A stretch of DNA of 51,021 bases from the IMG/VR virus record IMGVR_UViG_3300045413_000082, positions 1 through 51,021 of that record. The stretch is one strand, 5' to 3'. The notes under the pieces were generated by a model that worked only from the letters and a program-made list of their open reading frames with translations, searched no databases and was not told where the DNA came from. A program made the translations under genes and the position numbers. Below are positions 41,456 through 48,775 of the stretch, piece by piece (position 1 is the stretch's first letter; every line of letters starts with the position of its first letter). The DNA comes from a virus.

Positions 41456-42367
41456 CTACGCGCCCGCCGACATGTAGTAGTCGCGCCAGTCGGTGACGCC
41501 GACCGCGTAACGCGAGGTCGCCTTGTAGCGCATCGTGTCGGTGTCGAAGTCGCCCTCGGTGGAGCGCTGGATCGGGCGGCGCATCATGATCGACATGCCG
41601 CGATTGACACCGGTGCGGATACCCCACTGGGTGGTCGAGGTCTGGCGGGTGATGACCTTGACGCCGCCCTCGATCATGCCGAGCGAGTTGACGGCGTTGA
41701 GGGCGTTGTTCGCGTTGCTCGGAGCGAGGATCGACTTCAGCAGCACCTCGCCTTGGAACATGTTGGCCGGATTGACCAGCAGCTCCTTGCCGGTGAGCGA
41801 GATCGGCTTGCCGTCGTTGTCGACGGCGTTGTGGATTTGGATCAGCAGCTGCTCCAGCGACGTCTGCGACAGCGCGGCGGCGGTCGACAGCAGGTTCGAG
41901 GCGGTGCCGCCGAAGATGATGTGCGCCGACGACGCCAGCGCCAGACCGTCACCGATGGGGTAGCTGGCGTTGGTCGCGCGGTTGAGCAGGTTGGCGGCCA
42001 CCAGCTCCTTGGTCTCGATCATCGACTGAGCGAGATGCTCGGCGTAGATGCGACCGATGGAGATGTGGGCACCGTCCTCGACCAGCGTCTTGGTGAGGGC
42101 GTAGGCCAGACCATAGACGAAGTACTGGTAGCGGGTGTTGTAGAGGATGCCGCCGCCGCGATAGACGACCGGCTGTCCGTCCGGCAACTCCGGTGCCGAA
42201 CCGAGGCCGAACATGGTGGCCTCCTCGTGGTACTGGCGCTTCTCGCCCTCGCGCTCGCGGAGGAACGCCTTGTACTCGTCCTTGCGCTGGTCGTAGATGC
42301 CGTCGAAGGCGTCGTTGAGCAGCGGCTCGACGACGTAGCGGAAGTCGGTGTCGCGCATGATAGACAT
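41456..42367 (-). CDS. Major capsid protein, 303 aa
   Basis: The size, position after scaffold and decoration genes and sequence fit an HK97-fold capsid. The N-terminal helix is charged (FLREREGEKRQYHEEATMFG), followed by a region where TRYQYFVYGLAYALTKTLVE and a long spine-like helix (EHLAQSMIETKELVAANLLN) are seen. A basic, beta-rich C-terminal segment (MRRPIQRSTEGDFDTDTMRY) resembles the capsid P-domain strands. GGAG precedes the ATG. It would be the most abundant structural protein. Confidence 0.85.
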   Translation of the reverse strand: MSIMRDTDFRYVVEPLLNDAFDGIYDQRKDEYKAFLREREGEKRQYHEEATMFGLGSAPELPDGQPVVYRGGGILYNTRYQYFVYGLAYALTKTLVEDGAHISIGRIYAEHLAQSMIETKELVAANLLNRATNASYPIGDGLALASSAHIIFGGTASNLLSTAAALSQTSLEQLLIQIHNAVDNDGKPISLTGKELLVNPANMFQGEVLLKSILAPSNANNALNAVNSLGMIEGGVKVITRQTSTTQWGIRTGVNRGMSIMMRRPIQRSTEGDFDTDTMRYKATSRYAVGVTDWRDYYMSAGA

Positions 42368-44869: not shown

Positions 44870-45310
44870 TCAGATGAATGCGATGATCTTGAGCGGATCG
44901 CCGGTCACGCGACCGATCAGCTCAAGGTCGTTGAAGATGGCGAACAGCGCCTTGTCGCCGCCCTCGGTGCCCATCGGCACCTCGAAACGGTCGCCGCCGT
45001 GCTTCGCGACGCGGACGAAGTCACCCGGCTGACACCAGTCGTTTTCGGGCCACGGCTCCAGCGTCGTGCGGTTCTTGAAGGCGACAGGGCCGAGGGCGAT
45101 CACCTTGGCGACCTGCGTGTTCCATTTCTCGGCGTCGCGCGTCTCGTCGGAGATGTGGATGATGCCCCTCGTGCCGGCGAACTTCTTGGCCTGCCGCAGC
45201 TGCACGAGAACGCGCGATCCGAACGGCGCGATGCCCGGATCGGCGGCGGGCCATGCGTCGAGGATGCTCTGCGACGCCACGCTCTGAATTGGTGATGCTG
45301 TGATGCTCAT
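44870..45310 (-). CDS. GroES-like co-chaperonin domain protein, 146 aa
   Basis: Residues ~28-135 fit the Cpn10 beta barrel: PFGSRVLVQL as the first strand, a mobile-loop-like segment KKFAGTRGIIHI (42-53) whose hydrophobic GII-H matches the GroES loop that docks on GroEL, then TQVAKVIALGPVA, WCQPGDFVRV and FNDLELIGRV. T4 Gp31 is a precedent for a phage GroES analogue that folds the capsid protein. Its place between the scaffold and the portal supports a capsid-folding role. Confidence 0.7.
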   Translation of the reverse strand: MSITASPIQSVASQSILDAWPAADPGIAPFGSRVLVQLRQAKKFAGTRGIIHISDETRDAEKWNTQVAKVIALGPVAFKNRTTLEPWPENDWCQPGDFVRVAKHGGDRFEVPMGTEGGDKALFAIFNDLELIGRVTGDPLKIIAFI

Positions 45311-45498
45311 GTCTCGTCGTCCATGCGTTGGTTGTGCTTGATCACTTCTTCGTACAGCAGCTTGGCTTCTTGGAGACCACGGATGTAGCCGCTGTTCTCC
45401 GTCAATGCGACGGGGTCCAGTGGACGCTTGAGAAGAAACATCGTCGCGTCCGACGGGATTTTGGCTTCGAGTTCGGCGAGGAAGAAGCGCGCCGCCAT
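45307..45498 (-). CDS. Small helical protein, 63 aa
   Basis: Coupled to the GroES-like gene by ATGA and starting one base after the upstream stop. Helical, with acidic and hydrophobic faces. No family is recognised. It could be an accessory of the assembly proteins on either side. Confidence 0.6.
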   Translation of the reverse strand: MAARFFLAELEAKIPSDATMFLLKRPLDPVALTENSGYIRGLQEAKLLYEEVIKHNQRMDDET

Positions 45499-45499
45499 G

Positions 45500-45607
45500 C
45501 TACTTCTTCACAGGCTTCGGTCGGCCGTCGGCTTTCGCGACCGGCGGCTTGCCGCCCATGGCGATGCGCTTCTGTGGCCGTACTTTCGAGTTGTCCTTCT
45601 GGCTCAT
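45500..45607 (-). CDS. Tiny basic peptide, 35 aa
   Basis: Starts in ATGA overlap with the RyR gene and ends one base before the next start, so it fills the gap exactly. It is made almost wholly of K, R, P, G, S and D, hence unfolded and very basic (pattern R-P-Q-K-R and K-P-V-K-K). It might bind DNA or stick to acidic scaffold. It is too short for family recognition. Confidence 0.6.
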   Translation of the reverse strand: MSQKDNSKVRPQKRIAMGGKPPVAKADGRPKPVKK

Positions 45608-46083
45608 GACGCCTTCTCCTCTGCTGTCGGTTCGATGGTGATCTCGTCGTAGGCCTTGTCGGCGATGATCTTCTCCAGCTCGGGGTCGTTGACCTCGGCT
45701 GCCGGCACCGCCAGCGGCATGTTCGTACTGATGTCGCTCGGCGCAGGCATCAGGGCCCGCACCACGTTGATGAACAGGATGTCCTTGGTCTTCTGCTCCG
45801 CCGGCAGGTCGGCGTACATCATCACGCAGGGGTGCGTCTTGGCCGCCTCGTCTACATGCGGGCCGTACTTCCAGCCGTCGGCGAGCCTGATGGCGAGCCA
45901 GTAGCCATGCAAACTCTCGGGCGTCATGAAAGGGTTGGCAATGATCCCTTCGACGGCATCGATTGTCGACTTCTTCCGCCACTCCGGCGCGTTCGACCAA
46001 GAGGGAATGATGTCCAACTCGGCCGCCTCGTTGTATGCGCGGCTGGCCTCGTAGGTCACCTGTGCGATGCGTTCGATATTCAT
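45604..46083 (-). CDS. RyR-domain protein, 159 aa
   Basis: Residues ~6-111 match the RyR domain first known from ryanodine receptor channels: a W-x-x-A-P-E-W35 segment, N50-P51-x-x-T-P-E, H59, D69-G-W-K-Y-G-P75, H84-P-C86, D92-L-P and Q97-K-T-K-D-I-L-F104. The spacing and residues are very close to the known prokaryotic RyR consensus. The last ~45 residues are acidic and disordered. It sits next to the portal, GroES-like and scaffold genes. The function of prokaryotic RyR domains is not settled; ligand or peptide binding is suspected. Confidence 0.8.
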   Translation of the reverse strand: MNIERIAQVTYEASRAYNEAAELDIIPSWSNAPEWRKKSTIDAVEGIIANPFMTPESLHGYWLAIRLADGWKYGPHVDEAAKTHPCVMMYADLPAEQKTKDILFINVVRALMPAPSDISTNMPLAVPAAEVNDPELEKIIADKAYDEITIEPTAEEKAS

Positions 46084-46096
46084 GATGCTTGTCCTT

Positions 46097-48775
46097 TCAT
46101 CGTGGGTTGATGCCGGTACCCGTTGACACTCCGATCTTCTCGCCAGAGCGCAGCTCGGCGTCGGCGATGGTGAGCGCCGTTGCGTTGTCCTCGCGGTTCA
46201 TCTGGTGGCGGATGTCGGTCTCGTCCGCCCTCTGCGCGATGTCGGCTACATGCTGGCGGTCGTCCTGATCGGCCTTGCGGGTCTCGATGGCGACCTTGAC
46301 CGCGCGATCCTCCGCGCTCTCCTGCGCCTGCTGCTCGATCTTACGCTGCTCGGTCGCCTGACGACCCTGCGCAATGCCTGCCTGCGTCTGGGCCGCGATG
46401 TTGGCGGTGGCGATGGCGGCCTGCGCCGGGTCCATCGGCATCGGCGGCTGAACCTTCGCGGCCATCTGCTGCATCTGGCCCAGCAACGGCATCAGCTTCT
46501 GGTAGCGCTCGCTGATCCTCTCGACCGCGATCCCCGACGTGGCGGCGAACATCAGATCGATCTTGCGGCCCAGCTCGGGCTCCTTCAGCCGCAGCATCTC
46601 CACCACGGTGGCCTTGCCTTCGATTGTGTGCGCGCTCACGAACAGCGCCAGCAACTTCTCGTCGGTGCCGACGACGGCCTCCAGCTTCTCGTCGACTATC
46701 GCGAGCACGGTGGCTGCGTAGTCCATCGCCATGTGCTCGCGAAGGTGCTGCAGCATCGGGCCCGCCATCTGCGGTCCTGACGGCGACTGCAGTCCGAACA
46801 GCGGCGACTTGACCCAGTCGGCATGCACCTCGACGTGAGCGGGATGGTTCTGCTCTGGGAACGCCGTCACCGGTCGGCCGAGCGCGATAGCCACGTTCTC
46901 GTTCACCGCCGGCATCTCGGTCGGCGTCGGCGGCTTGACCAGCAGCTTGTCGATGTTGTCGAACTGTCCAGCCTCAAGGATCGTCTTCTCGACCTCGTAG
47001 GCGTTATAGGCGAGGGGGTTCAGCTTGGCGCGCTCGCCCAAGAAATTGGCTCGCGTCCAGCGCTGGGTGTCGGAGTTGATGCGAGGATCACTGACAGGTG
47101 CGACGACGCTGTCGCCCTCGAAATCGAACTTGGTGACCTCGGTGTCGCCGTCGGTGTCGGCGAAGGAGACGTTGTCGACGATCTGTCGACCGAGACGGAA
47201 CAGGCCAGCGAGCAGCCGACCCATGGTGCGATGCTGGCGGGCGAATATCGACGAATAAACGACCGTGCCCTCGTCGACCAGCATCATCATGGTGCCGACG
47301 GGGATGTCCTGACGCCCTTTGCCGACGATGTCGTCGAAGTTCGTGCGCACGACGCCCTTCGCCGCATCGATCAGGAAGCCCAGCATCTTGAACAGGACTT
47401 CCGACGGCGCATGGAACGTCGACTGCATCACAACCTTGCGGATGTCGTCGGTCTGTGTGGCGTTCTCGATCTCGGTGAAGACACCGACCTCCGACCGCAC
47501 GTTCTGTCCCGACTGGCCGGACTTCAGCTTGACGCCGCCTGCGTTGTTGTTGGCGTGTGCGCTGTCGAGCACCGCTCGCGCGGCACCGGTGGCAGCGCGC
47601 GGAATGCCGGCCAGCAGATGCGGGATGCCGATGGGCTTGCCGCCCCTGAACGGCATGAAGCCGAACTCATAGAGGAAGTCGAGCCGCTTGCGGCTCTCGT
47701 CCTTCTTCTCCCAGTTCCGATAGAGCGCCAGCGGCCGTTGCGTGTCCTTGTCCATCGTCAGGATGTAGGGCCGCATGTCGCCCTCACCGTCCCAGAACAA
47801 CGACGTCTCGTAGAGTGTCCGGCTGTTGTCGACGTTCTCGCCAGTCGGCTGCACTCCGGTGGTCTTGTCGGCAGCCGCCTCGACCTTGTTGCGTTCGGGC
47901 TCGGTCGACGGCGATCCGAGATCGATGTCAGCGTAGAGGCCGCTGCGCATGCGCTGTTCGAGCTGACGCTCGCTGACGGTCAGCTCATGCGTGATGCGTT
48001 CGCAGTCGTAGAAGTTGTCGTCACTCGGCGGACGATGCACCTTGTCGGAGGAGATGAAGGCGACGCGGGCGCGCTTGCCCTCCTTCCACAACTTCATGTA
48101 GGCCGAGCCCGAGAACGGCAGCTGCGCCATCGTCTGCTCGACCTCGTCGGCGAAGTTCTCCATCTGGCGGCGCGTCATCCAGTTCGCCCAGCGCGCCACC
48201 CTCTTGGCTCTGTCGTACTTCTCCTTCGTCACCGCTCCCTCGACGTGCGGCTTGGCCGGCCCCTTCGGCGGCAGCAGCTCGCGCAGCACGCGCGACGTGA
48301 AGTCGGAGCACACCTCGCCCACCAGCGGCATGGTGACGGTCGACGCACCCGGGAAGCTCGCACCACCCGGTGCCTTTCCTGTGAAGCCGCTGTCCTCGAT
48401 TGCGCGTGCGTAGCGAGCGTCGGCGTTCTTGCCGCTCTCGATGTCGCGCCCGATGTCCTCGTGGGTGTTGAGCGCCAGCAGCTCGATCTTGGCCTTCAGG
48501 CTGTCGACTTCCACGAGATTCTGGAAGTGCTTGCCGTTGTCGGTCTCGACTTCCTTGTCGTGATCGAGATCGATGACCGCACCGCCGTCTTCGGTGTAGG
48601 TCACCCCGTTTTCGGCGGCGTTCTTGGCGTCGTCGGCGCGATCCTGCGCCTCTGCCCCGAGGATCGTCGGAACGTCACCGGTCTCTGACGGCGGAGGGGT
48701 GGGGTCGATCTGATCTTGCGAGGCGAGCGGCCCGAGACCCCCCGGACCTGAACCCTGACGCGGACGTCTAGCCAT
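46097..48775 (-). CDS. Portal protein (P22-like), 892 aa
   Basis: The portal ring through which DNA is packaged. A disordered N-terminus (~1-95) precedes a long alpha/beta core with AGIPRAATGAARAVLDSAHANNN, a signature I associate with podovirus portals, and a long helical C-terminal barrel (~780-890) rich in A, Q, R and E, as in P22, where the barrel extends into the capsid. The start follows a short gap after the last upstream gene. Confidence 0.85.
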   Translation of the reverse strand: MARRPRQGSGPGGLGPLASQDQIDPTPPPSETGDVPTILGAEAQDRADDAKNAAENGVTYTEDGGAVIDLDHDKEVETDNGKHFQNLVEVDSLKAKIELLALNTHEDIGRDIESGKNADARYARAIEDSGFTGKAPGGASFPGASTVTMPLVGEVCSDFTSRVLRELLPPKGPAKPHVEGAVTKEKYDRAKRVARWANWMTRRQMENFADEVEQTMAQLPFSGSAYMKLWKEGKRARVAFISSDKVHRPPSDDNFYDCERITHELTVSERQLEQRMRSGLYADIDLGSPSTEPERNKVEAAADKTTGVQPTGENVDNSRTLYETSLFWDGEGDMRPYILTMDKDTQRPLALYRNWEKKDESRKRLDFLYEFGFMPFRGGKPIGIPHLLAGIPRAATGAARAVLDSAHANNNAGGVKLKSGQSGQNVRSEVGVFTEIENATQTDDIRKVVMQSTFHAPSEVLFKMLGFLIDAAKGVVRTNFDDIVGKGRQDIPVGTMMMLVDEGTVVYSSIFARQHRTMGRLLAGLFRLGRQIVDNVSFADTDGDTEVTKFDFEGDSVVAPVSDPRINSDTQRWTRANFLGERAKLNPLAYNAYEVEKTILEAGQFDNIDKLLVKPPTPTEMPAVNENVAIALGRPVTAFPEQNHPAHVEVHADWVKSPLFGLQSPSGPQMAGPMLQHLREHMAMDYAATVLAIVDEKLEAVVGTDEKLLALFVSAHTIEGKATVVEMLRLKEPELGRKIDLMFAATSGIAVERISERYQKLMPLLGQMQQMAAKVQPPMPMDPAQAAIATANIAAQTQAGIAQGRQATEQRKIEQQAQESAEDRAVKVAIETRKADQDDRQHVADIAQRADETDIRHQMNREDNATALTIADAELRSGEKIGVSTGTGINPR

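Follow-up and report, generated by a model that had tools for sequence, protein, structure and literature searches.

Why does a phage carry an animal-type RyR domain in its head gene cluster? The gene in question lies in a viral record of 51,021 nucleotides (IMGVR_UViG_3300045413_000082), which we analysed over its whole length and refer to here as the window. Our results suggest that its product is probably an anti-Thoeris protein of the RyDEP family, encoded by an optional gene of the head operon, with a pocket that would bind 2′cADPR and/or 3′cADPR and would likely serve as a sponge for these signals. Homology, predicted fold, residue conservation and optional presence come from the present analysis, and ligand binding, one case of cleavage and rescue from Thoeris come from published work on homologues.

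The RyR gene and its neighbours

The gene occupies positions 45604..46083 on the minus strand (ATG at 46083, end at 45604), where a preliminary description of this DNA had correctly located it, and encodes 159 residues. An AAAGGA ribosome-binding site 5′ of the ATG, a GC3 of 0.856 resembling that of the portal gene (0.861) and of most neighbours, a spacing of 13 nt from the portal gene, an ATGA overlap with the following gene and the family matches below together establish it as a real, well-embedded gene. Its base composition (GC3) gave no sign of recent import, and promoter and terminator scans stayed near shuffled expectation and were uninformative on expression timing. The product consists of a core (residues 1–112) followed by a disordered acidic tail (residues 113–159; 45607..45747, minus strand) with a pI of 4.05 and low model confidence.

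In a profile search, the Pfam RyR family (PF02026) matched the protein with 36.5 bits (E = 5.9e-9), above the gathering cut-off of 27.4 bits, with the match covering just profile positions 26–72 of 91. Strong matches were also obtained to three phage families of unknown function, including phrog_5154 (residues 2–121, E = 4.5e-32); a sequence search recovered RyR structures as well, and phage homologues aligned over residues 1–112 with 39–50% identity. An AlphaFold2 (AF2) model built from 68 aligned sequences has a pLDDT above 90 over residues 1–110, with four main helices in the core. It superimposes on predicted phage RyR proteins (BFVD) with an rmsd of 1.0–1.7 Å over about 110 residues (E down to 1.3e-9), and matches solved RyR domains in the PDB with a Foldseek probability of 1.00 at E values of only around 1e-3 to 1e-2, consistent with an RyR/R12 fold. 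Given the phrog_5154 span, the phage homologues over residues 1–112 and the confidently modelled core, we are confident that the predicted protein carries a whole RyR domain despite the partial Pfam span. The earlier claim of a complete RyR domain thus held up in both the profile search and the structure comparison, and each of the motif residues that it listed (W35, N50-P51, D69-GWKYGP, H84-P-C and Q97-K-T-K-D) is present. RyR structures such as 3nrt from B. thetaiotaomicron have the Pfam family and fold in common with the window protein, which differs from them in being no channel, in having a single repeat and in an identity of 15–30% in the structural matches. PADLOC and NCBIfam returned nothing for RyR.

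Upstream of the RyR gene lies the gene for the 892-residue portal (head-to-tail connecting) protein (46097..48775, minus strand), which matches phrog_1216 weakly and is homologous to annotated portal/connecting proteins, with 37% identity over 95% to a protein of Caulobacter phage RW. Downstream, and all on the minus strand, follow a 35-residue basic peptide with a QKRIAMG motif (45500..45607), the start of which overlaps the RyR stop; a 63-residue protein (45307..45498), the conserved neighbour on the upstream side of the GroES-like gene, with HMM matches in most relatives; a GroES-like (Cpn10) protein (44870..45310) with 53% identity to RW GP090, annotated as GroES, and a Pfam Cpn10 match below cut-off; and the major capsid protein (41456..42367; PF25209, 30.9 bits; 57% to the annotated major capsid protein in locus L003). 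This largely agrees with the neighbourhood first described, except that the label 'scaffold' for a 339-residue gene product is confirmed by no Pfam or PHROG match. The basic peptide had been presented as a coupled partner of RyR. The ATGA overlap is real, but 32 of 54 relatives lacking RyR also have a K-R-x-A-M-G-like motif in the portal–GroES interval, which argues that the peptide is a part of the head module, not specific to RyR, and that RyR was inserted before it.

The predicted ligand pocket

RyR-domain phage proteins were recently reported to bind 2′/3′cADPR, the bacterial Thoeris signals (PMC13232231; preprint, May 2026), a report that overtakes the earlier view of prokaryotic RyR domains as having no settled role and makes the suggested binding of a small molecule right in kind. 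RyDEP itself (DyoEdafos gp78) cleaves these signals as a glycosidase, giving ADPR, with H75 and D117 as catalytic residues, W78 stacking on the adenine, H100 contacting the phosphate and Q54 also mutated as an active-site residue (PMC13232231). Among eight other phage RyR homologues tested, six bound 2′/3′cADPR and two bound neither, and none of the eight cleaved them, although conserved; two of them, one from a Ruegeria phage and one from a Pectobacterium phage, bound with nanomolar affinity and protected phage from Thoeris (PMC13232231). Elsewhere, RyR is listed but not characterized (PMC13288928, PMC5468394), and it is absent from the text of a survey of NAD+–ADPr in viruses (PMC9503650). 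We took PDB chain 35tm to be DyoEdafos RyDEP because, with its sequence numbering checked, it has exactly the published residues at those numbers (PMC13232231).

Aligned with this chain at a constant offset of 16, the window protein has all four ligand and catalytic residues: H59 (codon 45907..45909, minus strand, as are all codons below) corresponds to catalytic H75, W62 (45898..45900) to W78, H84 (45832..45834) to H100 and D101 (45781..45783) to catalytic D117. H59 is invariant in 174 aligned RyRs; conservation counts at H59–W62 and G70-W71-G74 are in part built in, because the search for loci used patterns covering these positions. RyDEP and the window protein thus have in common the RyR/R12 fold, the H-x-x-W, HP and K-D motifs and these four residues; they differ in overall sequence (identity 0.29–0.32, among the lowest of all relatives), in Q54 and in the acidic C-terminal tail of the window protein.

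The N-terminal part of the domain is divergent. In 67 contig relatives we derived a signature, H-x-x-N-x-x-x-C-x-x-x-G-D-x-S-Q (our own definition, not a published one), of which H11, N14, C18, G22D23 and S25Q26 are invariant or nearly so and which is shared by the RyRs that we looked at from Ruegeria and Pectobacterium phages. At these positions, in the end of helix 1 and the helix 1–2 loop (residues 11–27; 46003..46053), the window protein instead has Y, S, N, E-L and I-I. Nearby, in the segment R36 to S39 (45967..45978), R36 replaces a Q conserved in 99% of the same 67 relatives, and S39 aligns with RyDEP Q54, a position also taken by S in the sponge-like majority. With the signature missing and R36 in place of a near-invariant Q, the ligand specificity of the window protein may differ from that of its relatives. 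The combination of Y11 with I25-I26-P27 is found, among 174 RyRs, only in the window protein, RyDEP and Mycobacterium phage Aegeus gp81 (I-V-P), a close relative of RyDEP. As these are few residues, and as region-by-region identity never made RyDEP the closest relative, we regard them as weakly suggesting that specificity has changed and do not count them as evidence for catalysis. A tree of 81 RyR domains, with few columns, did not place the window protein reliably, and protein scans of viral contigs and bacterial genomes returned no near relatives, leaving no near kin by which to date the insertion.

These comparisons bear on whether the protein cleaves its presumed ligand. As a glycosidase-type RyDEP converting 2′/3′cADPR to ADPR it would be the first outside mycobacteriophages, and the retained H59/D101 dyad, the missing signature and the Y11 and I25-I26-P27 residues would all fit. 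We nevertheless consider this unlikely: the eight other homologues tested were inactive despite their conservation, identity to RyDEP is low and, because S39 stands at the Q54 position, we do not file the protein as glycosidase type. The gene setting differs too. RyDEP sits in an NAD+ salvage operon with NARP1 neighbours, and Aegeus gp81 lies between two NARP1-type genes; the window gene lies in a head operon, and the NARP1-type enzymes NAPRTase (PF04095) and ribose-phosphate pyrophosphokinase (PF13793) are absent from the record in searches with positive controls, a context that is not strictly defining. For want of Q54, the window protein is likelier to be a sponge than an enzyme. With sponge-type homologues it has in common the S at the Q54 position and the loop length, and it is 44% identical to the RyR of Pectobacterium phage Nepra, one of the phage RyR sequences looked at, which may not be the exact homologues assayed in PMC13232231. 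It differs from them in R36, in the absent H11/N14/C18/GD/SQ signature and in location, since RyR lies among replication genes in those Ruegeria and Pectobacterium phages that we examined.

RyR genes in head modules

To place the gene in its genomic setting we compared the portal–GroES interval across related phages. Probing viral contigs with the portal sequence by itself gave no relatives, and a portal alignment did recover them. The nearest portal relatives are those of Caulobacter phages RW, GB2A, RLK and KcrB (37%) and of a Manatee Spring phage, and remoter ones come from phages of Roseobacter, Pelagibacter and lakes. Most relatives looked at have portal, small protein, GroES-like protein, further genes and capsid in this order, with Roseobacter CRP-901 as an exception, and most of the loci that we checked retain the rest of the head module. 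RyR was present in none of 113 related portal–GroES intervals (58 viral or phage loci and 55 bacterial-assembly loci); in the 58 viral or phage loci, the median distance between portal and the conserved gene that follows it is 178 nt. Some intervals hold other genes: an unrelated 146-residue protein in RW, a Phage_gp49_66 protein in locus L111, and other small or bigger open reading frames in larger gaps. By this comparison, RyR is an accessory gene that entered a conserved head operon between its portal and KRxAMG peptide genes, and the portal–GroES gap of this phage group is an accessory slot. Phage_gp49_66 (PF13876), which stands alone in the slot in L111 (2530–2847), forms a fusion with RyR in Vibrio phage FGH (L009:4677–5345) and may be another counter-defence cargo.

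Head-operon placement of RyR was seen in at least three settings and is not the rule, as several other phages looked at have RyR among early or replication genes. In locus L082, the gene for an RyR with the sponge signature immediately precedes those for homologues of three window proteins (the 189-residue protein, the major capsid protein and the 236-residue protein), at a different site within a related head module; in this locus an HNH endonuclease (2262–2795) is also inserted, separating the capsid gene from the head gene after it. F116-like phages have RyR in front of a C-terminal domain, in a protein whose gene is flanked by the decoration gene and the following structural gene, an arrangement found at 29 loci among L008–L090, and Shewanella Y11 and Pseudoalteromonas Y7 have the same C-terminal domain at the same place without RyR. 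These F116/Hollowayvirus-like fusions (phrog_11782) resemble the window in having RyR in a head gene cluster but differ in their position, their capsid family and their fusion to a C-terminal domain, the window protein being free-standing. Across L008:5001–5831, L180:3477–3938 and L181:3480–3965, RyR is an optional N-terminal domain of this head-module protein, the RyR-less forms of which are annotated, probably wrongly, as 'alanyl-tRNA synthetase'.

Other arrangements were also observed. A DHH phosphoesterase (phrog_4771, residues 6–305) is fused to an RyR domain (residues 320–438) at L061:3398–4723, so that a single phage protein joins an apparent nucleotide-degrading enzyme to a signal-binding RyR. 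At L044:7660–8531, in a phage contig that is otherwise different, an RyR gene is directly adjacent to, and overlapped by, a true Cpn10 (GroES) gene. Finally, IMGVR_UViG_3300010965_000005 contains the same 10.3-kb stretch twice, in identical copies that run in opposite directions (L211 and L212), each with RyR between a terminase-like open reading frame and a portal relative, a duplication that is either an inverted repeat or an assembly artefact.

The head-operon position, the acidic disordered tail as a possible tether and the optional N-terminal RyR of the F116-like head-module protein would fit a protein that is carried inside the head or on its surface, enters the cell along with the DNA and acts before any new genes are expressed. 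This we judge improbable, as the tail has no recognized packaging signal, the literature searched yielded no mass-spectrometric support and late co-expression explains the gene position equally well. A structural or assembly role, the first suggestion of the preliminary description, would fit the gene's place between portal and GroES-like genes and its translational coupling to the next small gene; it is not supported on present evidence and is highly improbable, given the absence of RyR from all 113 related intervals, the short gap after the portal gene (median around 180 nt), the other genes held there and a conserved ligand pocket in a family known for nucleotide binding.

A candidate anti-Thoeris gene

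We therefore return to the anti-Thoeris reading. The pocket formed by H59, W62, H84 and D101 would bind 2′cADPR and/or 3′cADPR made by host TIR proteins and, with the signal most likely held by a sponge rather than an enzyme, the Thoeris effector would stay off. The same presumed task, sequestering cADPR-type signals, is performed by the Thoeris sponges Tad1 and Tad2, which belong to families unrelated to RyR. Inserted between the portal and KRxAMG peptide genes and translationally coupled into the head operon, the gene would yield a sponge from the portal's own operon, appearing when the trigger appears. TIR defences are triggered by major capsid proteins, as sensed by staphylococcal and streptococcal Thoeris ThsB (PMC12578639), and by the portal YonE, as sensed by the SpbK TIR (PMC12847820), so the countermeasure might be made together with its trigger. 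We infer the timing advantage, the sponge activity and a Thoeris-bearing target host.

The function of the RyDEP family was already known; what is added here is the tendency of RyR genes to lie in head operons and the divergent N-terminal part, both testable. A bolder reading, less likely than not, is that head operons are a recurrent home for RyR counter-defence, which would be produced alongside the capsid and portal proteins to which TIR systems respond, or would travel on them, with this member, its N-terminal signature lost and RyDEP-like residues gained, perhaps having a new catalytic or ligand specificity. A divergent RyR that keeps the catalytic dyad and lacks the usual N-terminal signature would be useful for distinguishing sponge from enzyme. 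What had looked like a stray animal-type domain among phage head genes thus becomes a concrete, testable candidate anti-Thoeris gene, and suggests a rule by which TIR countermeasures may be sought beside the TIR triggers, portal and capsid.
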